From assembly GCF_041381155.1 (NCBI RefSeq), contig NC_091149.1, positions 10,928,609-10,992,608 of the forward strand: DNA of 64,000 nucleotides, given 5' to 3'. A model generated the notes under the pieces. It saw only the letters and a list, made by a program, of their open reading frames with translations, was not told the DNA's origin and made no database searches. The position numbers and the translations under genes were made by a program. The DNA comes from Argopecten irradians. Taxonomy: Eukaryota; Mollusca; Bivalvia; Pectinida; Pectinidae. Positions 15,909-63,562 of the stretch are shown piece after piece; the first letter of the stretch is position 1; the number at the start of each line of letters is the position of its first letter.

Positions 15909-30102
<14,194 letters not shown>

Positions 30103-38389: not shown

Positions 38390-38440
<51 letters not shown>

Positions 38441-41400
38441 GGTTGTCCCGCACAAAATTAGGAATATGGGCACAATTGATGGAAATTTAAGACACCAGTA
38501 ATAACCTTGGAAACAAACCCATGGTTTATATAAGGTTGGTTAAAGTCTATTTCAGTTTTTCACTGCAAGAAACTGGGATGAAGAGGAATAAGAGATCCAA
38601 GAGGGATCTTGGCGCCCACCAAAGTATGATCTATGTCTGACAATGGAAAGAGGGATCTTTTCCCTGCTTTTCAAACTTTTCCAAACAAACATCATATGAA
38701 ATTTAAGACAGATTGCTACATTACTTTCTGAGAAACATGCACAACTAAATCACAAGGGGAACCTACCCATGGAATATGAGAAATATCACTTTAGTAATTT
38801 CTAACAAATAGCGATAATTATCAAAATTCATGATGGCAGTCGGTTGGCCATGTTGTTGACCGACCGGTCCCAAAATGCAATATGCCTTCAGTACTCTCTG
38901 AGAAATAGCGGTAACGAACTTTAACTATCAAAATCCAAGATGGCTGCTTGGTGGCCATTTTGTTCACCGATCAGTCCCAAAATGAAATATGCACAACAAG
39001 GGTCCTAGGGGAATCTACATATGAAATTTGAGAAAGATCTCTTAAGGACTTTCTGAGAAATAGCGATAACAACTTTAAGTATCAAAATACAAGATGGCTG
39101 ACGGTCGGCCAACTTGTTGACCGATTGGTCCCAAAATCTAATATGCATAGGGTCCTAGGGATACCAACATATGAAATTTCAGAAAGATCCCTTCAGATCT
39201 TTCTGAGAAATTGCGGTAACAAACTTTTAACTATCAAAATCCAAAATGGTCGCCTGGCGGCCATCTTCTTCACAGATCGGTCCCAAAATGCAATTTGCAA
39301 ACAAGGGCCCTAGGGAAAGCTACATATAAATTTGAGAAAGATCCCTTCAGTACTTTGGGAGAAATACTGATAACAAACTTTAACTATCAAAATCATTGGA
39401 GACCGATTGATCCCAAAATTCAAATATGCACAACTAGGGCCCTAGAGGGACCTACATATCATATGAAATTTGAGGCAGATCCCTTCAGTACATTTCTGAG
39501 AAATAGCGATAACAAGAATTGTTAACGGACGGACGGACAGACAGAAGGACGGACCACGGACCACGGACAAAAAGCAATTTGAATAGAAAAAATCCCTACC
39601 TACCGACCCTTCTTTATTAAAAGGGTGTTACCGGAAACAAGAATATTTTTTTAATTGGTCTGATTTATTTTTAATAATATTTCTAGCTTTCTATTCTTTT
39701 GCATATGTTCTATGAATGAATTAATTACCCAGCTGTATATAAGTTTTCCCCATTCCTCTGGTGTCCGCCACATCATAAGACATTGCTTCTTTGTTTTACT
39801 ATCAGTCCATTCTAGGTGTCCTGGACACAACATAACATATAGAGGTGTTATAGAATTAATTTTACAATATTCATACATTCAACTTGAACTCAATGAATAT
39901 TATAATGCTCTATGTAATCATACACTTCTGTAACATAAATTTAAACTGCAGGTAGCTATATACCATTACCGAGGAAGTATATAAATCCTTGACCATTACA
40001 TATGTATTGTGTTAGATACAAAACAGAGCTTTTAAATTTAATGACAAAAAAAGTAAAAATAAAGTATGGAGTAATCATATGTCCATGATTCTGCTAACAT
40101 GTTTTTGTTAACCATGTAATTTGTGTGATTTCAGACTTAGTACCATTTGATATCATATATATATACAGCCTGTTAGCTTTATTTTCGTGATTTCGTCAAT
40201 CGCTGGTTCGGTGACATTTCTATGATCACGAAAAATTTGATTGCATGCATGAAATATTGAGACATGGTTGAATGATATCAACCTTGAAAATCCATATCAC
40301 AAAAATTAAAAATCGCTAACATCAGATTTTCAAACCGCGAAAATTTTGGTCTGCAAAAAAAACCTCCTACACGGTAATTCTTAGATTACATGTAGCCCAT
40401 TAATGAAAAATAAGATAACACCTTCCATACAGTACAACACACAACATTCCAATTCCAACATTTTAAAGTTATCTATGATAAATTTATCTGGATCAGGTGT
40501 CATGATCACATGATGCAGAATTGAAAAAGATCCGACTTACCTGTTTTCCTCAATTCCTCTAAGACAGTTAGAATACCATCAATAGATAGCTTACCTATTT
40601 ACAATTAAGGAACAATCACTAATTTTTGGTTAGTTCATCAATATAATATAATAGACCATTAATTGGTTTTTTTTCTCTCCCACCTTTGGATGGATAATTG
40701 TACCTGCAGGCCTATAGGAATATCCAATAGTGCCCTGGCCCACTTAAACTTAATTGTTTACTGCAATCAGTCACAAAATTCTGACCAATTTTCCAACTTC
40801 TACATAATTTTGATGTATATTTGAGAAAACGATAATTGTTCCAATATTAATGATCTGCTTTTTAATCAGATTGTTTAATATCAAAGGTTATTTTCAGCAT
40901 CATAGAAACAGTGTTTGAAAATGAGCATAATATCGTGTGGAATGTGTCAAGGTAGTAAATGTACGCCAACCCGTTATGAATGTTTTACACAAAGGATACG
41001 GTTGATTGCTTTATTGTTGAATAGTGGAGAATTCTGTGATTCTGTCACATCAATGCTGTAGGTTTTCTGTTGGCGAGTGTATGATAACACAAGCGAACAC
41101 CAAGCTTCAATCTGTTTCTTCCGTGTTTCAAGGTTAGGCTGGATCCTACAAATATAATTCAAATTACCGTAATTAATGTTTTAATAATTCAAAAACATTG
41201 TTTTAGAGGTCTGTTTGTGAAGTAAACTATTGTGGTTATATTTGTGGAGTTGGAAAACTTTCTCCGTAATCAAAAACACATTTTCATTGAATATTCTTTG
41301 CATTGTACTGCACTCTTGAATAGGCTTGCATAACTATGTGAAACTGCCACCCAAGTTTGATTTGTCTATGGTAATTTGTTATGGGCAAAGCCGTGATGCA

Positions 41401-45261: not shown

Positions 45262-48200
45262 ATGATTACACTGTCCAAAAAATTAAAGCAACAGGCACCT
45301 GTGAAAAAGGAAACTGATGATCATGAAATCAAAAGGATATCAATCAGGGACAAACTTCTTGTGAAAGGTATACATGTAATTGATTTAATACAATATTTAT
45401 TAGTACAATTTATCAATAAATGTCGGCTAATTTTTTTTTCTGATTTCACCTCTGCAAGTAAATTGCCTTCTTTTCTATTATGTATTACATTGTTAAATAA
45501 ATTTCAGCAGGTTTTCATTTTCAAACTATTTCCTAAATTTCAGCTAAATACTAGCTGTATTCGCATATTACAGAGTTATCTGAACTTGCGGGTAGGTATT
45601 GATTGTGACGTCATGTGTTTATGAGCGTAACATCATATTTTTCGGAGAAACCATGTGAATTGCACTCACAAAATATGATGTGTAACAATCAATACCTACC
45701 TGCAAGGGAGCTAACTCTGTAATATGCAAGGACAGAGTAGTGACATCAGACCCTGATTTCTCATAACATAAGTGCAGATTTAAAGATGCTCCACTGCCGA
45801 CAGAGCATAAATGACATTCATCATTTGAACAATAATTGGTGTATAATCGTGTATATTTATGTCTGATTAACACAACAAATAATATAAAATAATTTATTTC
45901 GCCTTTGGTGCATGCGCAATCAGTACTTCATTCCATATAGGATATAATGACACAAAATTTTTTCGGGATGCAATTAATTATTTTTCATATTTTTACTTGA
46001 AGTAAAATTAGAAGCTCAAACTTTTCAATAGTGGTAATGGTGTAAAGTAATTAAGTAACTTTTGTAACTGAAGAAAAATGCTAAATCGTCTGCTCCTGTT
46101 TTTGATAGTGAAAAAATACCATATGTCAGCGGTGGAGCATCTTAAACCAAAAATTTTTTTTCTCCTTTTGTAACTTACATGTATATGAAAATTTATTACT
46201 TAAGTTTTTGATTTCAGTTTGTTTCGAGATATCAGGGCCTGATAAAAACAATTCTTTATGTTATTTCTACTTTGTTTCTCAACAGAGGTTCAGGAAATGG
46301 AAGAAAACTTGCCTAAAACATGCAAAGTAAACTTTGGTAATCCTAACCAGCTGCACGTCTTCTCCCTGACTATAACTCCTGACGAGGGATTCTGGCATGG
46401 AGGAAGATTCTTATTTAATGTTGATATACCTGAGGATTACAATATTGTGGTAACTATGAATATCTGTTATTATTTTGTATACATATATATATATATCCAT
46501 TTTGTTTATGGCCTAGCTAGCACATGACTGCTTGACAATCATCTGGTAGGCTTTGATGACATACCTAACTAGGATTTTTAGCCCACCATCATCAGATGGT
46601 GGGCTATTCAAATCGCCTTTCGTCCGTGGTCCGTCGTCCGTCCGTCCGTCCTTCCGTCCGTCCGTCCTTCCGTCCGTCCGTCCGTCCGTCCGTTAACAAT
46701 TCTTGTTACCGCTATTTCTCAGAAAGTCCTAAAGGGATCTTTCTCAAATTTCATATGTAGGTTCCCCTAGGACCCTAGTTGTGCATATTGCATTTTGCGA
46801 CCGATCGGTCAACAAGATGGCCGACAGGCGGCCATCTTGGATTTTGATAGTTAAAAGTTTGTTACCGCTATTTCTCAAAAAGTGCTGAAGGGATCTTTCT
46901 CAAATTTCATATGTAGGTTCCCCTAGGGCCCTAGTTGTGCATATTGCATTTCGGGACCAATCGGTCAACAAGATGGCCGACAGGCGGCCATCTTGGATTT
47001 TGATAGTTAAAGGTTGTTACCGCTATTTCTCAAAAAGTGCTGAAGGGATCTTTCTCAAATTTCATATACAGGTTCCCCCAGGACCCTAGTTGTGCATATA
47101 GCATTTTGGGACCGATCAGTCAACAAGATGGCCGACAGGCGGCCATCTTGTATTTTGATAGTTAAAAGTTTGTTACCGCTATTTCTCAAAAAGAACTGAA
47201 GGGATCTTTCTCAAATTTCATATGTATGTTCACCTAGGACCCTAGTTGTGCATATTGCATTTTGGGACCGATCAGTCAACAAGATGGGCCGACAGGCGGC
47301 CATCTTGGATTTTGATAGTTTAAGTTTGTTACCGCTATTTCTCAGAAAGTACTGAAGAGATCTTTCTCAAATTTCATATATAGGTTCCCTAGGGCCCTAG
47401 TTGTGTATGTTGCATTTTGGGACCGATCGGTGAACAAAATGGCCGACAGGCGGCCATCTTGGATTTTGATAGTTAAAAGTTTGTTACCGCTATTTCTCAA
47501 AAAGAACTGAAGGGATCTTTCTCAAATTTCATATGTAGGTTCACCTAGGACCCTAGTTGTGCATATTGCATTTTGGGACCGATCAGTCAACAAGATGGCC
47601 GACAGGCGGCCATCTTGGATTTTGATAGTTTAAGTTTGTTACCGCTATTTCTCAGAAAGTACTGAAGAGATCTTTCTCAAATTTCATATATAGGTTCCCT
47701 AGGGCCCTAGTTGTGCATATTGCATTTTGCGACCGATCGGTCAACAAGATGGGCCGACAGGCGGCCATCTTGGATTTTGATAGTTTAAGTTTGTTACCAC
47801 TATTTCTCAAAAAGTGCTGAAGGGATCTTTCTCAAATTTCATATGTAGGTTCCCCTAGGGCCCTAGTTGTGCATATTGCATTTCGGGACCAATCGGTCAA
47901 CAAGATGGCCGACAGGCGGCCATCTTGGATTTTGATAGTTAAAGGTTGTTACCGCTATTTCTCAAAAAGTGCTGAAGGGATCTTTCTCAAATTTCATATA
48001 CAGGTTCCCCCAGGACCCTAGTTGTGCATATAGCATTTTGGGACCGATCAGTCAACAAGATGGCCGACAGGCGGCCATCTTGTATTTTGATAGTTAAAAG
48101 TTTGTTACCGCTATTTCTCAAAAAGAACTGAAGGGATCTTTCTCAAATTTCATATGTATGTTCACCTAGGACCCTAGTTGTGCATATTGCATTTTGGGAC

Positions 48201-51200
48201 CGATCAGTCAACAAGATGGCCGACAGGCGGCCATCTTGGATTTTGATAGTTTAAGTTTGTTACCGCTATTTCTCAGAAAGTACTGAAGAGATCTTTCTCA
48301 AATTTCATATATAGGTTCCCTAGGGCCCTAGTTGTGTATGTTGCATTTTGGGACCGATCGGTGAACAAAATGGCCGACAGGCGGCCATCTTGGATTTTGA
48401 TAGTTAAAAGTTTGTTACCGCTATTTCTCAAAAAGAACTGAAGGGATCTTTCTCAAATTTCATATGTAGGTTCACCTAGGACCCTAGTTGTGCATATTGC
48501 ATTTTGGGACCGATCAGTCAACAAGATGGCCGACAGGCGGCCATCTTGGATTTTGATAGTTTAAGTTTGTTACCGCTATTTCTCAGAAAGTACTGAAGAG
48601 ATCTTTCTCAAATTTCATATATAGGTTCCCTAGGGCCCTAGTTGTGTATGTTGCATTTTGGGACCGATCGGTGAACAAAATGGCCGACAGGCGGCCATCT
48701 TGGATTTTGATAGTTTAAGTTTGTTACCGCTATTTCTCAAAAAGTACTGAGGGATCTTTCTCAAATTTCATATGTAGGTTCCCCTAGAACCCTAGTTGTG
48801 CATATTGCATTTTGGGACCGATCGGTGAACAAGATGACCGACCGACGGCCATCTTGGATTTTGATAGTTAAAGTTTGTTATCGCTATTTCTCAGAAAGTA
48901 CTGAAGGGATCTTTCTCAAATTCCAAGCACAGTTTCCCCTTGTACCCTAGTTGTGCATAGTACCTTTAAGGACTGCTCCATAATGCTTTTTGGGACTGAT
49001 CGGTAAAAAAGATGGCCAACCGGCCGCCATCTTAGATTTCATTGTTGAAGTTTGTTACCACTTTTTCTTAGAAAGTACTAGAGCGATCTGTCTCAAATTT
49101 TATATGTAGTGTGTTTGAAAAAGTTTGAAAAGCAGGGAAAAGATCCTCTTTCCATTATCAGACATAAATCATTCTTTGGTGGGCGCCAAGATCCCTCTGG
49201 GATCTCTTGTTTTTAGCTCACCTGGCCCGAAGGGCCGGTGAGCTTATGCCATGGCGCGGCGTCCGTCGTCCGTCGTCCGTCCGTCCGTCCGTCTGTCTGT
49301 CTGTCCGTCAACATTTCCTTTAAATCGCTACTAGTCATAGAGTTCTGCATGGATTGTGACCAAATTTGGCCACAAACATCCTTGGGGGAAGGGGAACAGA
49401 ACTTGTATAAATTTTTGGCTCTGAGCCCCTGGGGGCAGGAGGGGCGGGGCCCAATAGGGGAAATAAAGGTAAATCCTATAAATCGCTACTAGTCATAGAG
49501 TTCTGCATGGAGTGTAACCAAATTTGGCCACAAGCATCCTTGGGGGAAGGGGAACAGAACTTGTATAAATTTTGGCTCTGAGCCCCCGGGGGCAGGAGGG
49601 GCGGGGCCCAATAGGGGAAATAAAGGTAAATCCTATAAATCGCTACTTGTCCTAGAGTTCTGCATGGATTGTGACCAAATTTGGCCACAAACATCCTTAG
49701 GAGAAGGGGAACAGAACTTGTATAAATTTTGGCTCTGACCCCCTGGGGGCAGGAGGGGCGGGGCCCAATATAGGAAATAAAGGTAAATCCTATAAATTGC
49801 TACTAGTCATAGAGTTCTTCATGGATTGTAACCAAATTTGGCCACAAACATTCTTTGGGGAAGGGGAACAGAACTAGTATAAAATTTGGCTCTGACCCCC
49901 CGGGGCAGGAGGGGCGGGCCCAATAGGGGAAATAAAGGTAAATCCTATAAATCGCTACTAGTCATAGAGTTCTGCATGGATTGTAACCAAATTTGGCCAC
50001 AAGCATCCTTGGGGAAGGGAAACAGAACTTGTATAAATTTTGGCTCTGAGCCCCCGGGGGCAGGAGGGGTGGGGCCCAATAGGGGAAATAAAGGTAAATC
50101 CTATAAATCACTACTTGTCCTAGAGTTCTGCATGGATTGTGACCAAATTTGGCCACAAACATCCTTAGGAGAAGGTGAACAGAACTTGTATAAATTTTGG
50201 CTCTGAGCCCCTGGGGGCAGGAGGGGCGGAGCCCAATAGGGGAAATAAAGGTAAATCCTATAAATCACTACTAGTCATAGAGTTCTGCATGGATTGTAAC
50301 CAAATTTGACCACAAACATTCTTTGGGGAAGGGGATAAGAACCTGTATAAATTTTGACTCTGACCCCCCGGGGGCAGGAGGGGGCGGGGCCCAATATGGG
50401 AAATAAAGGTAAATCCTATAAATCGCTACTTGTCCTAGAGTTCTGCATGGATTGTGACCAAATTTGGCCACAAACATCCTTGGGAGAAGGGGAACAGAAC
50501 TTGTATAAATTTTGGCTCTGACCCCCTGGGGGCAGGAGGGGCGGGGCCCAATAGGGGAAATAAAGGTAAATCCTATAAATCGCTACTAGTCATAGAGTTC
50601 TGCATGGATTATAACCAAATTTGGCCACAAACATCCTTGGGGGAAGGGGAACAGAGCTTGTATAAATTTTGGCTCTGACCCCCAGGGGGCAGGAATGGTG
50701 GGGCCCAATAGGGGAATTAGAGGTAAATATTCAAATTTCTTCAGAAAATAAACAATGAACCTGTATCCAGAATATTACTTGGCATTACAAACCAGGTGAG
50801 CGATACAGGCCCTCTGGGCCTCTTGTTATATGATATCATCAGAATTTTCCCATGTCTGGTGATTTCAACTCAATAAATTATGCCCGGCAAAAGAAAAAAA
50901 AATCAAGGGGAGATAATTTTGGAATATATACTACACTGACCTACAGCTAACATATGTGGGGAAATTTGGATCAGTCAGAAAAAAACATATGAATTATTGA
51001 ATCAAAATGCTGAATGCAGATTAAGTCAGATAAAACATATATTTGTATTTTAGCCCACCATCATCTGACAGATAATATTTCTAAAAAAATCTATTTTACA
51101 AGCCTTGTTGAGCAAAAATTTTAAGATTAAGAAAAGTTTTGTAAAATCTTGTACAAGATCGATGACCACACAAATCAAAAACTGTTTTATCACACCTTCA

Positions 51201-57545: not shown

Positions 57546-57795
57546 GTTATGTCTGGGCTATACCTTCTAACGCTTTTAACAACGTCCTAGATCTGTCGTG
57601 ACAGACAATCAACATCACCAATTTGTGGCACAAGATCCCTCAGGATTCTTATTTATTCATTACAATCACTCCGCTACAATTATATCGCTCATTCATACAA
57701 ACAAACCACACACATACTGTCCAATACTTATAGCACTATGTAATATGTATATCACTTCTCAACAGATTCTTTATATTTATCATAAATACAAAACA

Positions 57796-58133
57796 TTTAT
57801 TCTGTCATAATGTCTTCATTACTGTAACTTTTGTCTTATTGAACTCAAAATTTCACATATACCATGCAGCCAGTTATTTTCATAAATGATACAATTAAAT
57901 TTTCCCCAGAAATTCCTATGTATCTAATTCTGGAAATTCCATAATCGCATCTCTATCTTCAATACATAGTCTGCAACAAAGTTCTTGTATGTTGGACACA
58001 AGAGGAAACTATTGAAGTTACCCGAGTCAGATATTTATGAATCAGTTCAGAGTTCAATCTGATCTGATGAGTCAAAGGTGAAGAAACTGAAGTTGACAAT
58101 ATCATTTGTATTTCTTTTCTTGAAGATTCAAAT
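57796..58133 (-). other. COPS8: Predicted COPS8 3' UTR exon with poly(A) signal
   Basis: A very strong minus-strand acceptor (long T/C tract, then TTTTTTGCAG) ends at 58134. A minus-strand AATAAA lies at 57801-57796. The last coding exon of COPS8 ends, five bases after its stop, at a perfect donor, so this is the likely terminal exon. This is an inference from splice signals only. Confidence 0.5.
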
Positions 58134-58613
58134 CTGCAAAAAAGAAAAGAAAAGATAAATAAAAAAAAATTGGGAAAACAAAAGGATTATTCAAATCAGA
58201 ATTATTAAATGAATAAAATCAGGGTTTCATATATTAATTGGGGAAATGTTCACAAATATATTGTTCACATAAATTCTTAATGACATCATTCTTGAACATT
58301 TTTCACTTTCCATACTACCATATTTCACAGCAAATATGCCCCCTCCGCACCCAGAGAGTAAAGGAAGATAAAAAGTGGTGGGGGTCTTATTTGCAGACAA
58401 TCTGCCTGACAAGATCGCTCTATTAGGTATAAGTCAGACATCCTCCTAAATTCTGGAAATTTGTTAAAATAGGGGGGGGGGGGATGGGGGTCATTGCAGT
58501 AAATAGTACATGTTTTGAAAAAATGATAAAAATCAGTAAAACCTTCCTTGAATAAAAACGTCATAATTTTCAGTTTCTAAATCTGAACTGAATACCTGAT
58601 GTTAATCCCTCTA

Positions 58614-60024
58614 CAATGGCTTTAACCTACCTGATTCAACTCTCTGGGAATAAAGATACACAGCACAATGGCTTTAACTTACCTGATTCAACTCTCTAGG
58701 AATAAAGATACACAGCACAATGGCTTTAACTTACCTGATTCAACTCTCCAGGAATACAGATACACAGTACAATGGCTTTAACCTACCTGATTCAACTCTC
58801 CAGGAATAAAGATACACAGCACAATGGCTTTAACCTACCTGATTCAACTCTCTAGGAATAAAGATACACAGCACAATGGCTTTAACCTACCTGATTCAAC
58901 TCTCCAGGAATAAAGATACACAGCACAATGGCTTTAACCTACCTGATTCAACTCTCTAGGAATAAAGATACACAGCACAATGGCTTTAACCTACCTGATT
59001 CAACTCTCCAGGAATAAAGATACACAGCACAATGGCTTTAACCTACCTGATTCAACTCTCCAGGAAAGATACACAGCACAATGGCTTTAACCTACCTGAT
59101 TCAACTCTCTAGGAATAAAGATACACAGCACAATGGCTTTAACCTACCTGATTCAACTCTCAGATACACAGCCAATGGCTTTAACTACCTGAAGCTCTCT
59201 AGGAATAAGATACACAGCACAATGGCTTTAACCTACCTGATTCAACTCTCCAGGAATAAAGATACACAGCACAATGGCTTTAACCTACCTGATTCAACTC
59301 TCCAGGAATAAAGATACACAGCACAATGGCTTTAACCTACCTGATTCAACTCTCCAGGAATAAAGATACACAGCACAATGGCTTTAACCTACCTGATTCA
59401 ACTCTCCAGAATAAGATACACAGCACAATGGCTTTAACCTACCTGATTCAACTAGGAATAGATACACAGCACAATGGCTTTAACCTACCTGATTCAACTC
59501 TCCAGGAATAAAGATACACAGCACAATGGCTTTAACCTACCTGATTCAACTCTCCAGGAATAAAGATACACAGCACAATGGCTTTAACCTACCTGATTCA
59601 ACTCTCCAGGAATAAAGATACACAGCACAATGGCTTTAACCTACCTGATTCAACTCTCCAGAATAAGATACACAGCACAATGGCTTTAACTACCTGATTC
59701 AACTCTCCAGGATAAAGATACACAGCACAATGGCTTTAACCTACCTGATTCAACTCTCCAGGAATAAAGATACACAGCACAATGGCTTTAACCTACCTGA
59801 TTCAACTCTCTAGGAATAAAGATACACAGCACAATGGCTTTAACCTACCTGATTCAACTCTCTAGGAATAAAGATACACAGCACAATGGCTTTAACCTAC
59901 CTGATTCAACTCTCTAGGAATAAAGATACACAGCACAATGGCTTTAACCTACCTGATTCAACTCTCTAGGAATAAAGATACACAGCACAATGGCTTTAAC
60001 TTACCTGATTCAACTCTCCAGGAA
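58614..60024. repeat. 52-bp minisatellite built from the COPS8 exon/intron junction, about 28 copies
   Basis: Minus-strand unit: TTCCTGGAGAGTTGAATCAG, then GTAGGTTAAAGCCATTGTGC, then TGTGTATCTTTA. The right-most copy is the real end of the last COPS8 coding exon (LES-stop) with its donor. Most internal copies read CAG|GTAGGT and the outermost ones CAG|GTAAGT. Many copies read TTTATTCCTAG|AGAG, which also resembles an acceptor. A few copies carry small deletions (about 59158-59200, 59447-59460). Confidence 0.92.
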
Positions 60025-63000
60025 CGATACATAGTCAGTGAGAACTGAGAGTTGCTGGTCACTTTTAAACTCCGGATCAACCTGTACACCTACTGCAACA
60101 TAAAACATACATATGTATATGATAATAACCAAATTCAAGCGTGAAAACTTACAATAAAGATTTAGAAACCACATGGGTGACGAAACCAAGGATTTTAAAT
60201 GAGTTATTCCCCTTTGCTCTACTTTCTGAGCTCTCAGCTTTTTGGAGTTATAATATGACAGAATTCTGATGCATTTCTGTCTGTGTATAATACAGGGGTT
60301 TCGAGATCCCAAAACAATGTGGGTAAAGTACAATTTACTATCGATAAGTCCCACCAACCGGGTATATGTAAAGATGATTTACTATCGATTGGTCCCACCT
60401 TCAGGTGATTATGATGTCACAAAAATCGTGTCAAATGTCATCATTTGACATTTGACACGATTTTTGTGACGTCATAATCACCGGAAGGTGGGACCAATTG
60501 ATAGTAGATAATCTTTACATATACCCGCATCATTTTGGGATGTCAAAACCCTCTTATTGAACAATGAATTCACAACATTACCAGTCTATAATTTACAGTA
60601 AAACTGCTCTTACGACTGCCTGCATATACTGACTACCTGTCTATAACGACCTGTTTTAAACTCCACGTGTGGTTTGACTATAAAATTACACTGCATAACG
60701 ACCACCTGTCTAATATGGCTAACAATAGACTTTTTGAGTTGCATCCCTTAAAATTAACTCCCTTTAGTAAGCATAAGACAGTCATTAAAAGAAGAACAAG
60801 CTATAAATTGTTTATACAGGACTGCATAGTTAGTAGCCTTGTAACATTTGAGGTAAAGTTTGAGTTGCCAACTTGAGGATGGAAGTTCTAACAACTGTTT
60901 AGTGTATTTACACCTATCAAAGATTGAAATGATGTTTAGTTGTTAGCATCATGTTCACAAAAAAAAATCAAAACAAAGTATGTGATACTTTTGAAGCTGT
61001 TTGTTTTTTATTAGTTTATCGTCCTATTAACATGCAGGGTCATGTAAGGACGTGCCAGGTTTGTTGGTGAAGGAAAGCCAGAGTACCCGGAGAAAAACCA
61101 CCGACCAATGGTCAGTACCTGTCAACTGCCCCACATGGGATTCAAACTCGAATCCCAGAGGTTGAGAGCATGTGGTAATATGTCAGGACATCTTAATCAT
61201 TCCGCCACCCATGCCCCTGTACTTTTGAAGCCATAAGAAGATATGGTAAGCTAATAAAACATATCAAATCATGTAATTTGATTTACATATTCCGTTATTC
61301 ATTGCCAATATCTAACTTTGTTATATTGATAAGAAATGCCTGGTACTAAACCTACTTCAAATTATAAATCTACAATCTTTACAATCAGGTATCGCCAAAT
61401 ATCTTGGTATTCTTGAAATGCATATTAATAACAAGAGATCCCAGAGGGATCTTGGCGCCCACCAAAGAATGATCTATGTCTGACAATGGAAAGATGGATC
61501 TTTTCCCTGCTTTTCAAACTTTTTCAAACACACTACATATAAAATTTGAGACAGATCGCTATAGTACTTTCTAAGAAATAGTGGTAACAAACTTCAACAA
61601 TGAAATCTAAGATGGCGGCCGGTTGGCCATCTTGTTTACCGATCAGTCCTGAAAGGCATTATGCATCAGTCCTAAAAGGTACTATGCACAACTAGGGTAC
61701 AAGAGGAACCTATCAATGGAATTTGAGAAAGATCCCTTACGTACTTTCTGAGAAATAGCTATAACAAACTTAAACTATCAAAATCCAAGATGGCCGTCGG
61801 TCAGCAATCTTGTTCATTGATCGGTCCCAAAATGCAATATGCACAACTAGGGTCCTAGGGTAACCTATATATGAAATTTGAGAAAGATCCCTTCAGTACT
61901 TTTTGAGAAATAGCGGTAACAAACTTTAACTATCAAAATCCAAGATGGCCGCCTGTCAGCCATCTTCTTCACCGATCGGTCCCAAAATGCACTATGCACA
62001 ACTAGGGTTCTAGGGAACCTGTATATGAAATTTGAGAAAGATCCCTTCAGTACTTTTTGAGAAATAGTGGTAACAAACTTTAACTATCAAAATCCAAGAT
62101 GGCCGCCTGTTGGCCATCTTGTTCACCGATCGGTCCCAAAATGCAATATGCACAACTAGGGTTCTAGGGGAACCTGTATATGAAATTTGAGAAAGATCCC
62201 TTCAGCACTTTTTGAGAAATAGCGGTAACAAACTTTAACTATCAAAATCCAAGATGGCCGCCTGTCGGCCATCTTGTTCACCGATCGGTCCCAAAATGCA
62301 ATATACACAACTAGGGTCCTAGGGGAACCTGTATATGAAATTTGAGAAAGATCCCTTCAGCATTTTTTGAGAAATAGCGGTTTCAATATTTAACTATCAA
62401 AATCCAAGATGGCCGCCTGTCGGCCATCTTGTTCATCGATCGGTCCCAAAATGCAATATGCACAACTAGGGTCCTAGGGGAACCTATATATGAAATTTGA
62501 GAAAGATCCCTTCAGTACTTTTTGAGAAATAGCGGTAACAAACTTTAACTATCAAAATCCAAGATGGCCGCCTGTCGGCCATCTTGTTCACCGATCGGTC
62601 CCAAAATGCAATATGCACAACTAGGGTCCTAGGGGAACCTATATATGAAATTTGAGAAAGATCCCTTCAGTACTTTTGAGAAATAGCGGTAACAAACTTT
62701 AACTATCAAAATCCAAGATGGCCGCCTGTGGGCCATCTTGTTCACCGATCGGTCCCAAAATGCAATATGCACAACTAGGGTCCTAGGGGAACCTACATAT
62801 GAAATTTGAAAAAGATCCCTTTAGCTCTTTCTGAGAAATAGCGGTAACAAGAATTGTTAACGGACGGACGGAAGGACGGACGGACGGAAGGAAGGACGGA
62901 CGGACGACGGACCACGGACGAAAGGCGATTTGAATAGCCCACCATCTGATGATGGTGGGCTAAAAAGCTATCCCATCACTAGAAGGAAGAAATGATACTG

Positions 63001-63562
63001 TATCTCCTATCTGACAATTCAATACCTGGTTTCTTTGGTGTGATAAATCGTGTTTGAGCATCAGCTTCCCATCCTTCTGTTCTAGCAGCTGCAATAGTAA
63101 TGTATAAGCATTATATTGAAATATTTTCATCTTTTTACATAAAATGCCATGGCATAGTGAATGGTAGCTATTAATAAAACAGGTGAGTAATATTTTTATA
63201 TTTTGGTTTTATGGCCTATACACAGGCAATATCAGTGATAAAGGTACCTTAAACAAAACCAATTTTAATTTTGAAGTGTAACCGTAACACAACATACTTA
63301 TTTTGCTGACAATAACTGACTATCAACTTTTGCTATTAGTTACCATAGATGGTGACATTAGCAAACTGTGACATATATTCTTATCAAAGGCAGCCAAAAC
63401 TTTGTAGAAGAGACTTTTTTGTGTGCAGTATCTTTTTTTTATAATATGTTTTACCTTGGACAGCATCTGTAGTAGACATGCCCAGAAATGTCGCCAGCTC
63501 ATCTCCATTTATAGAAGAATAGGCTTGTGATACTAGATGGAAAGCTCGTCTGCGATATGCCT
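60010..63562 (-). CDS. COPS8: COPS8, COP9 signalosome subunit 8 (C-terminal part)
   Basis: Small PCI-family subunit of the COP9 signalosome, the complex that removes NEDD8 from cullins. Coding exons seen: 63562-63455 ([26 protein letters not shown], ending AVQ); 63088-63026 ([20 protein letters not shown]); 60092-60010 ([20 protein letters not shown], ending LES, TGA). Phases agree at both junctions. The pieces follow the human protein in order (RRRAFALVSQAYTSI, GWQADSTTRM, LTDYVAFLEN). About 85 C-terminal residues are covered; the N-terminal PCI helices lie beyond the right edge. The gene converges on UBE2F. The last coding exon ends in the first copy of a 52-bp tandem repeat, and a spliced 3' UTR is likely. 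Confidence 0.93.
60296..60556. repeat. Foldback element in COPS8 intron
   Basis: Two arms of about 120 bp: the inner parts (GTCAAATGTCATCATTTGAC at the centre, CACAAAAATCGTGTCAAATG outward) are near-perfect complements. The outer parts (GGGGTTTCGAGATCCCAAAA against ATTTTGGGATGTCAAAACCC) are imperfect. Probably a MITE. Confidence 0.75.
61008..61217 (-). mobile_element. tRNA-derived SINE
   Basis: On the minus strand: a tRNA-like head (GGTGGCGGAATGATTAAGAT; B-box-like GAGTTTGAATCCC), then a body with GGTGGTTTTTCTCCGGGTAC and CTGGCACGTCCTTACATGAC, and a tail ATAGGACGATAAACTAATAA. A body-only fragment is at about 11200-11290. Confidence 0.65.
61430..62963 (+). mobile_element. Helitron-like element, family B, full copy in COPS8 intron
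   Basis: Starts AACAAGAGATCCCAGAGGGA. Has about eight units of roughly 165 bp (AAGATGGCCGCCTGTCGGCC, GATCGGTCCCAAAATGCAAT), then GGACGGACGGAAGGACGGAC, CGATTTGAATAG and the hairpin AGCCCACCATCTGATGATGG, then TGGGCTAA. It is the best copy for reading both ends of the family. Confidence 0.75.

Follow-up and report, generated by a model that had tools for sequence, protein, structure and literature searches.

A COPS8 minisatellite carrying the gene's own 5' splice site, and the probable wider class of donor-seeded arrays in the same genome

In the window (the whole stretch of 64,000 nucleotides analyzed here), a minisatellite begins at the end of the last coding exon of COPS8 and carries a copy of a consensus-like 5' splice site in each unit. 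Across the genome, tandem triplets of the donor motif greatly exceed their reversed control while acceptor motifs are spared from such arrays, and coding exons precede at least 5 of the 15 other donor arrays that were read to their start. We hold it to be fairly probable that these observations share one explanation, in which a segment across the exon border was duplicated, the first donor is the one used, the array leaves with the intron, and COPS8 harbors one of probably several hundred donor-seeded arrays. With marginally less confidence, we also favor the broader reading that 5' splice sites are hot spots for minisatellite birth or retention, with several hundred to a thousand arrays made of their own exon tail and intron head and with 3' splice sites spared.

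The host gene lies on the minus strand and was recognized by tblastn using an approximate human COPS8 sequence, which recovered the exons in order, three of them within the window and others just past its end. The best match (E 5.6e-9) is the coding exon two upstream of the last (63455..63562, borders read), which is also the one exon matched above the cut-off by PF10075 (29.2 bits). The penultimate coding exon (63026..63088; E 0.010) is bordered by TTGCAG|CTG and CCAG|GTATTG, and the last coding exon (60005..60092; E 0.002, borders read), which gave a marginal phmmer match to COP9 subunit 8 in the PDB (E 0.1), terminates on the minus strand as GAG AGT TGA ATCAG, with the stop codon TGA at 60012-60010 and the donor GTAAGT directly after it. 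The genome searched comprised 845.8 Mb in 1508 contigs, and the sizes of the ten contigs inspected among C1-C16 (75.5 to 34.5 Mb), against 1.07 Mb for C17, suggest 16 chromosomes. In this genome a single occurrence was found for the last exon with its flank, for the array and for the predicted terminal exon, and the search returned no haplotype copy, retrocopy or paralog with an unexpanded or spliced junction. An uninterrupted PF10075 profile match in a 218-residue frame on another chromosome (L009, G000:C10:39874928-39875338) was rejected as COPS8; it is probably an intronless eIF3K.

Tandem Repeats Finder (TRF) placed the minisatellite at 58613..60024 on the minus strand (period 52, 27.7 copies, 94% matches, score 2495), where it overlaps the final 20 bases of the exon. 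The first-pass annotation had described it as built on COPS8's own exon/intron junction, and this overlap, together with the homology and reading frame of the exon, bears the description out, as it does the junction CAG|GTAAGT, since the exon end was read at 60005 and GTAAGT from 60004. Unit by unit, the minus strand presents 28 CAG|GT sites, namely the real donor at 60004 followed by 27 others, the last at 58630 (hexamers within 58625..59952), spaced 41-52 bases apart and in register, which agrees with the roughly 27 extra donors originally proposed. The additional sites are 23 GTAGGT, two GTAAGT (58734 and 58682) and two GTAGTT (59693 and 59188), although several copies have single-base losses in short runs that resemble assembly errors, so that the exact copy number and both GTAGTT sites are uncertain. 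The spread of a single donor variant through the interior, which had been suggested earlier, is evident from the 23 GTAGGT sites. The accompanying statement that the outermost copies keep GTAAGT is correct for the real donor, but the outermost distal site (58630) is GTAGGT and the distal GTAAGT sites are the two before it. When the 52-bp unit was searched against the 845.8-Mb genome, all 27 matches fell within the COPS8 array, in a search that scores the best candidates only.

The composition of the unit could be established in part. It had been divided into 20 exonic and 32 intronic bases, and the exonic portion of about 20 bases stands (19/20 identical to the exon tail), as do 18 bases that correspond to the intron head at the far edge of the array, where the last partial copy retains them (58613..58630, minus strand) before unique intron sequence begins. 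The 14 bases between these two parts are ambiguous in origin, so the proposed split is not secured; an ungapped match of their region to the exon was equalled by 493 of 20,000 shuffles and is merely suggestive. The alternative of about 34 exonic bases per unit, which the 18-base intron head had seemed to imply, gained no support from an anchored alignment, which was equalled by 1150 of 2000 shuffles. Besides, the units had been credited with acceptor-like sites ahead of a 13-base micro-exon, and 11 of the 27 copies do carry CCTAG (10) or CCCAG (1) at that position, which could serve as weak acceptors with a pyrimidine content of 0.70, compared with 0.90 at 58133. Between the real donor and the nearest of them there are just about 39 nt, and introns are usually longer than that. 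Every unit also has the CAG|GT itself, yet the tract preceding that AG is pyrimidine-poor.

The sequence downstream of the array points to a 3'-UTR intron. The first-pass annotation had named an acceptor at 58134/58133, and the predicted 3' splice site there (long pyrimidine tract at 58134..58156, minus strand) indeed has the richest tract of 151 YAG sites from 60095 to 55500. A terminal 3'-UTR exon is predicted at 57780..58133 on the minus strand from the poly(A) signal scan and sequence reading, its end being a guess, with AATAAA at 57801-57796 and another at 57657-57652. A hexamer scan found no AATAAA or ATTAAA between the stop codon and the acceptor at 58133, and the array is therefore probably located in a 3'-UTR intron. 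The layout fits an intron of about 1.87 kb containing the array, followed by a terminal exon of roughly 350 nt. A short poly-G run is also present within this putative intron, near 58473-58484. It is improbable, in our judgment, that the junction is unspliced and its donor match fortuitous, with the 3' UTR continuing through the array to the poly(A) signal at 57801 or 57657: the distance of about 2.2 kb from the stop codon to 57801 is a possible length, the intron is predicted from sequence and weaker AATATA hexamers occur ahead of the acceptor at 58262 and 58235, but a full donor consensus directly follows the stop codon, the best of 151 candidate acceptors lies downstream, and arrays of this kind are tied to real exon ends elsewhere in the genome.

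Within a spliced 3' UTR, the question is which donor would be chosen. GTAAGT at 59999..60004 (minus strand) is predicted to be the 5' splice site used, given its position at the exon end and a U1 duplex energy of -11.9. Against a preference for the first donor based on strength, the predicted pairing of GTAGGT is nearly equal (-11.6), GTAGTT being weaker (-7.9). The distance from stop codon to exon junction would be 5 nt with the real donor, 57 nt with the second, and 109 nt and onward with those beyond. According to the exon junction complex (EJC) rule of vertebrates, an exon junction far past the stop codon leads to mRNA decay, and 57 nt is near or beyond the limit. A wrong choice, credited earlier with altering the 3' UTR only, may thus still do harm, as this rule predicts decay for the second donor and all later ones, their junctions lying at least 57 nt past the stop.

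These distances also form part of the case for use of the extra donors, by which the 3' UTR would be lengthened in steps of about 52 nt, a fraction of the mRNA would be sent to decay, and copy number would tune COPS8 output. Turri and colleagues are said to have described, in 1995, a human IFI6 minisatellite, reportedly of short units, with multiple splice donor sites. Two of its downstream repeat units are reported as used donors (PMC4526556), and at COPS8 the predicted U1 pairing of 25 of the 27 extra sites differs little from that of the real donor. Conversely, the EJC rule is a vertebrate one that may not hold in this host, and the other arrays of the genome follow coding exons in mid-domain with units that are mostly not multiples of three, so that their use would break the protein. 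We regard use of the extra donors as rather unlikely and retain the reading in which the exon-proximal donor would prevail.

IFI6 is the closest parallel known: there, too, donor-bearing repeat units stand at an exon end ahead of an intron, and the COPS8 array has a consensus-like 5' splice site in each unit and starts at an exon end identified by homology and frame, its splicing being predicted. The differences are that the repeat donors of IFI6 are reported as used, while the COPS8 unit, of 52 bp and with a stop codon, is described from its sequence, and that IFI6 is a single human case, while here the arrangement recurs at many unrelated genes within one genome. Minisatellites that span exon-intron boundaries are likewise reported, in the available part of the study, as variable internal tandem repeats in human segmental duplications, with 27 intron modifications judged by comparison of paralogs and transcripts; those hosts are recent, near-identical paralogs, whereas the loci tested here are single copy with no such paralogs, and that part describes no particular excess of donors over acceptors (PMC2812944). 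In the Rogers model, intron gain by tandem AGGT duplication, of which ATP2A1, fission yeast and potato cases are presented in the portion consulted (PMC4974935), the tandem segment also contains AG|GT, from which each unit might give both splice sites, but here the segment spans an existing donor and no new intron is implied; by eye, the COPS8 array showed no coding continuation after its last copy that would make it a new intron between coding parts, and the strong acceptor lies about 480 bases on. Pairs of 4-30 bp direct repeats at both intron ends, as far as the accessible text describes them (PMC11782384), resemble the present arrays in lying near intron borders and differ from them in that these have tens of copies at the 5' end only. 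The consulted parts of five further papers mention no arrays of donors (PMC3045353, PMC12783039, PMC12235515, PMC4039745, PMC3862624), and searches of an open literature library, which has few subscription papers and preprints, listed no title that treats donor-bearing minisatellites as a genome-wide class. The COPS8 array alone is thus a further case of a known kind, and its interest derives from the large donor-specific class, by way of the counts and exon matches described below.

The whole genome was searched for three copies of CAGGTRRGT at a set spacing, with the reversed motif as control. At spacings of 50-80 bases, 8,382 places were obtained (4533+3849 on the two strands) compared to 803 (372+431) for the control, and at 19-49 there were 6484 (4040+2444) against 1304 (688+616). 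Single sites numbered 44351 (22343+22008) and 15939 (8255+7684), respectively, and triplet places per single site at 50-80 amounted to 0.189 for the donor and 0.050 for the control. Since place counts over-weight long arrays, separate arrays were counted among the matches listed, those of the donor from the start of C1: at 50-80 there were 12 donor arrays in the first 21.2 Mb of C1 and 12 control arrays in about 236 Mb, a density ratio of 11 (p 1e-7), to be read with the qualification that the control matches listed are on the plus strand only for C1 and on the minus strand only for C2-C4, and the control density could be up to double if a strand was omitted. Among the matches listed, the 19-49 set comprised five arrays in 6.5 Mb, one of them shared with the 50-80 set, and the related motif AAGGTRRGT, with 5266 triplet places (2708+2558) against 640 (359+281) reversed, comprised five arrays in the first 17.7 Mb. 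Extrapolated to the length of the genome, the donor arrays among the matches listed would amount to about 480 for spacing 50-80, and, provided that the start of C1 is representative, the genome probably holds several hundred donor-seeded minisatellites, or as many as a thousand.

Some of these arrays are conspicuous in themselves. One donor array with a 42-bp unit is very long, its copies numbering about 100 or more (G000:C1:6463090 to at least 6467246; L053-L057 in part), and AAGGTRRGT sites about 35 bp apart occupy a 6-kb stretch at G000:C1:5520006-5526072. A CAGGTRRGT array (C1:17739929-17742148) and an AAGGTRRGT array (C1:17748110-17749361) are distinct, on the same strand and about 6 kb apart, perhaps in one gene.

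The acceptor motif TTTTTCAGR, which equals the donor motif in frequency (44164 single sites, 22089+22075; reversed, 12966+12918), behaved differently. At spacings of 50-80 its triplets were found at 250 places (88+162) compared to 214 (65+149) for its reverse, or 0.0057 per single site against 0.0083, and 90 of the 100 triplet places listed stem from one array. Minisatellites may contain fewer T-rich words for unrelated reasons, and the fair comparison is that of each motif with its own reverse; on this comparison acceptors are spared from such arrays, unlike donors. The source of those 90 places is a long array of TTTTTCAGA at about 38-bp spacing (G000:C1:5651673-5655765).

The counts have to be weighed against the possibility that the class is an artefact of a few long arrays, of gene-rich or G+C-rich context, or of a taste of minisatellites for CAGG-like words, which we consider as improbable as use of the extra donors. 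Places are dominated by long arrays, the reversed control is not matched for genic context, and CAGGARRGT, in which one donor base is broken, still yielded 2295 triplet places (933+1362) against 569 (392+177) reversed. This last result, fewer than for the donor motif and above its own reverse, counts somewhat against a pure donor effect, although CAGGARRGT is a weak control because its listed places derive from two arrays, one of which is the opposite strand of a donor array (A7). On the other side, the excess persists when separate arrays are counted, the acceptor motif of equal frequency shows none, with the caveat on T-rich words given above, and 5 of 15 arrays start within one residue of a domain-matched exon end.

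This last point rests on 16 donor arrays (A1-A16) among the matches listed, the start of which was read for 15, A5 not being traced to its start. The open frames that end at the first donor and span 25 residues or more, 20 in all, were trimmed to their last 150 residues and scanned with Pfam. For five of the 15 arrays, a match over the curated cut-off stopped no more than one residue short of the donor (guanylate cyclase, 2e-6; aspartyl protease, 4.5e-8; RNA polymerase, 2.3e-17; PAX, 4.6e-22; proteasome, 7.3e-7), and in all five the profile extends past the end of the match, by just four positions for the aspartyl protease. A sixth and a seventh match were below the cut-off (transferrin-receptor dimerization domain, E 6.6e-5; AAA lid, weak, E 0.0015), and the other 13 of the 20 frames had no Pfam match below 0.01. 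No protein match was obtained for eight of the 15 arrays, three of which (A1, A2 and A11) look unlike exon ends by eye, while A10, A14, A15 and A16, and perhaps A4, resemble coding exons with an acceptor ahead. Searches of the PDB and NCBIfam with six peptides (A4, A9, A10, A14, A15 and A16) returned nothing, the latter being a bacterial and archaeal library whose silence has little weight; ATAD3, laminin, GART and GLUT are tentative names for A9, A10, A15 and A16. Moreover, the maximal open frame leading up to the first donor exceeded background over the 15 arrays (p 1.2e-6), with individual p values below 0.05 in five (A3, A7, A8, A10 and A14). A test of exon-likeness that required an acceptor and an open frame was passed by 4 of 16 loci (A6, A8, A9 and A12), against a background of 227 among 4000 random positions and 12 among 158 CAGGT sites; it is too strict, and COPS8 itself fails it.

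These exon matches bear on the earlier proposal that the expansion was tolerated because the stop codon comes first. As the five Pfam-matched arrays follow coding exons, with the match ending no more than one residue from the donor, precedence of the stop codon is not the general reason. First-unit lengths in these five arrays are 48, 56, 68, 62 and 35, one of them a multiple of three, and 5 of the 16 arrays have such a length, which is close to chance and does not indicate that the reading frame is lengthened by distal donors. The units of different arrays have little in common beyond the donor (best local score 22 in 120 pairs), and the class is therefore not one dispersed element.

How the arrays arose can be approached from their edges. 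In 3 of the 11 arrays with a readable far edge, the exon-tail and intron-head parts sum to about one unit (50+6 for 56, 24+14 for 35, and 8+20 for 27), as expected if a single contiguous stretch across the junction was duplicated in tandem; for the remaining eight, COPS8 among them, the parts do not sum to a unit. At COPS8, a short segment across the border of the last exon and the 3'-UTR intron would have been duplicated in tandem and then expanded and homogenized to 27 extra copies. The exon-proximal donor at 60004 would normally win and be joined to 58134/58133, so that the array leaves with the intron, the protein is untouched, and the repeats drift, presumably in a neutral manner. Each array of the class would be made in the same way from a different gene's own 5' splice site. 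Donor arrays may persist because the correct donor is always first on the exon side, whereas in an acceptor array the correct site would come last, behind decoys, making such arrays harmful and selected against; this difference in order would account for the contrast between donors and acceptors. The survival of harmless arrays cannot explain the donor excess over the reversed motif, for which a further mutational or selective cause is needed, such as biased mutation at exon ends, selection favoring additional donors, or genic context.

Selection on the extra donors, for example through bound U1 guarding long introns from early polyadenylation or through robust donor choice, is unlikely in our estimate, if less so than the other alternatives considered. 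Counted as places, donor triplets are about 5 to 10 times as frequent as the reversed control, and counted as arrays per Mb about 11 times; across seven arrays the donor core has fewer substitutions (19/1118) than the rest of the unit (188/5947; p 0.007), in a test for which six of the arrays were found through their intact donors and the cells are not independent. The lower variation is mainly owed to one array (2/301 vs 95/1419), however, and another shows the reverse (15/210 in the donor vs 22/514), including nine changes that turn CAG into AAG ahead of GT, while the difference at COPS8 alone lacks significance (0/189 vs 14/1173, p 0.24). We keep neutral drift of the repeats behind a first donor as the preferred account.

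If hundreds of introns start with many copies of their own donor, they represent a natural experiment on how the spliceosome chooses among near-identical 5' splice sites, and the contrast between donors and acceptors could separate the origin of repeats at splice sites from their survival. Arrays that vary between individuals would mark splicing robustness gene by gene, and donor arrays could mislead gene annotation. Should the hot-spot reading be true, they would form an undescribed genome-wide class, and introns would lengthen from their 5' end while leaving the transcript unharmed.

Other features of the window were also recorded. Arrays with units of 154-157 bp occur at 38885-39394, 46703-48959, 49316-50728 and 61665-62850, one of them in the COPS8 intron preceding the last coding exon, and three adjoin CGTC or ACGG microsatellites (46621-46693, 49260-49309 and 62860-62920); they are reminiscent of bivalve 'pearl'/Helitron-type elements. 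A run of 40 G at 38400-38439 directly follows a T-rich run. Finally, exon-like open frames on the minus strand at 19615-22281 resemble exons of a TGF-beta type receptor kinase.
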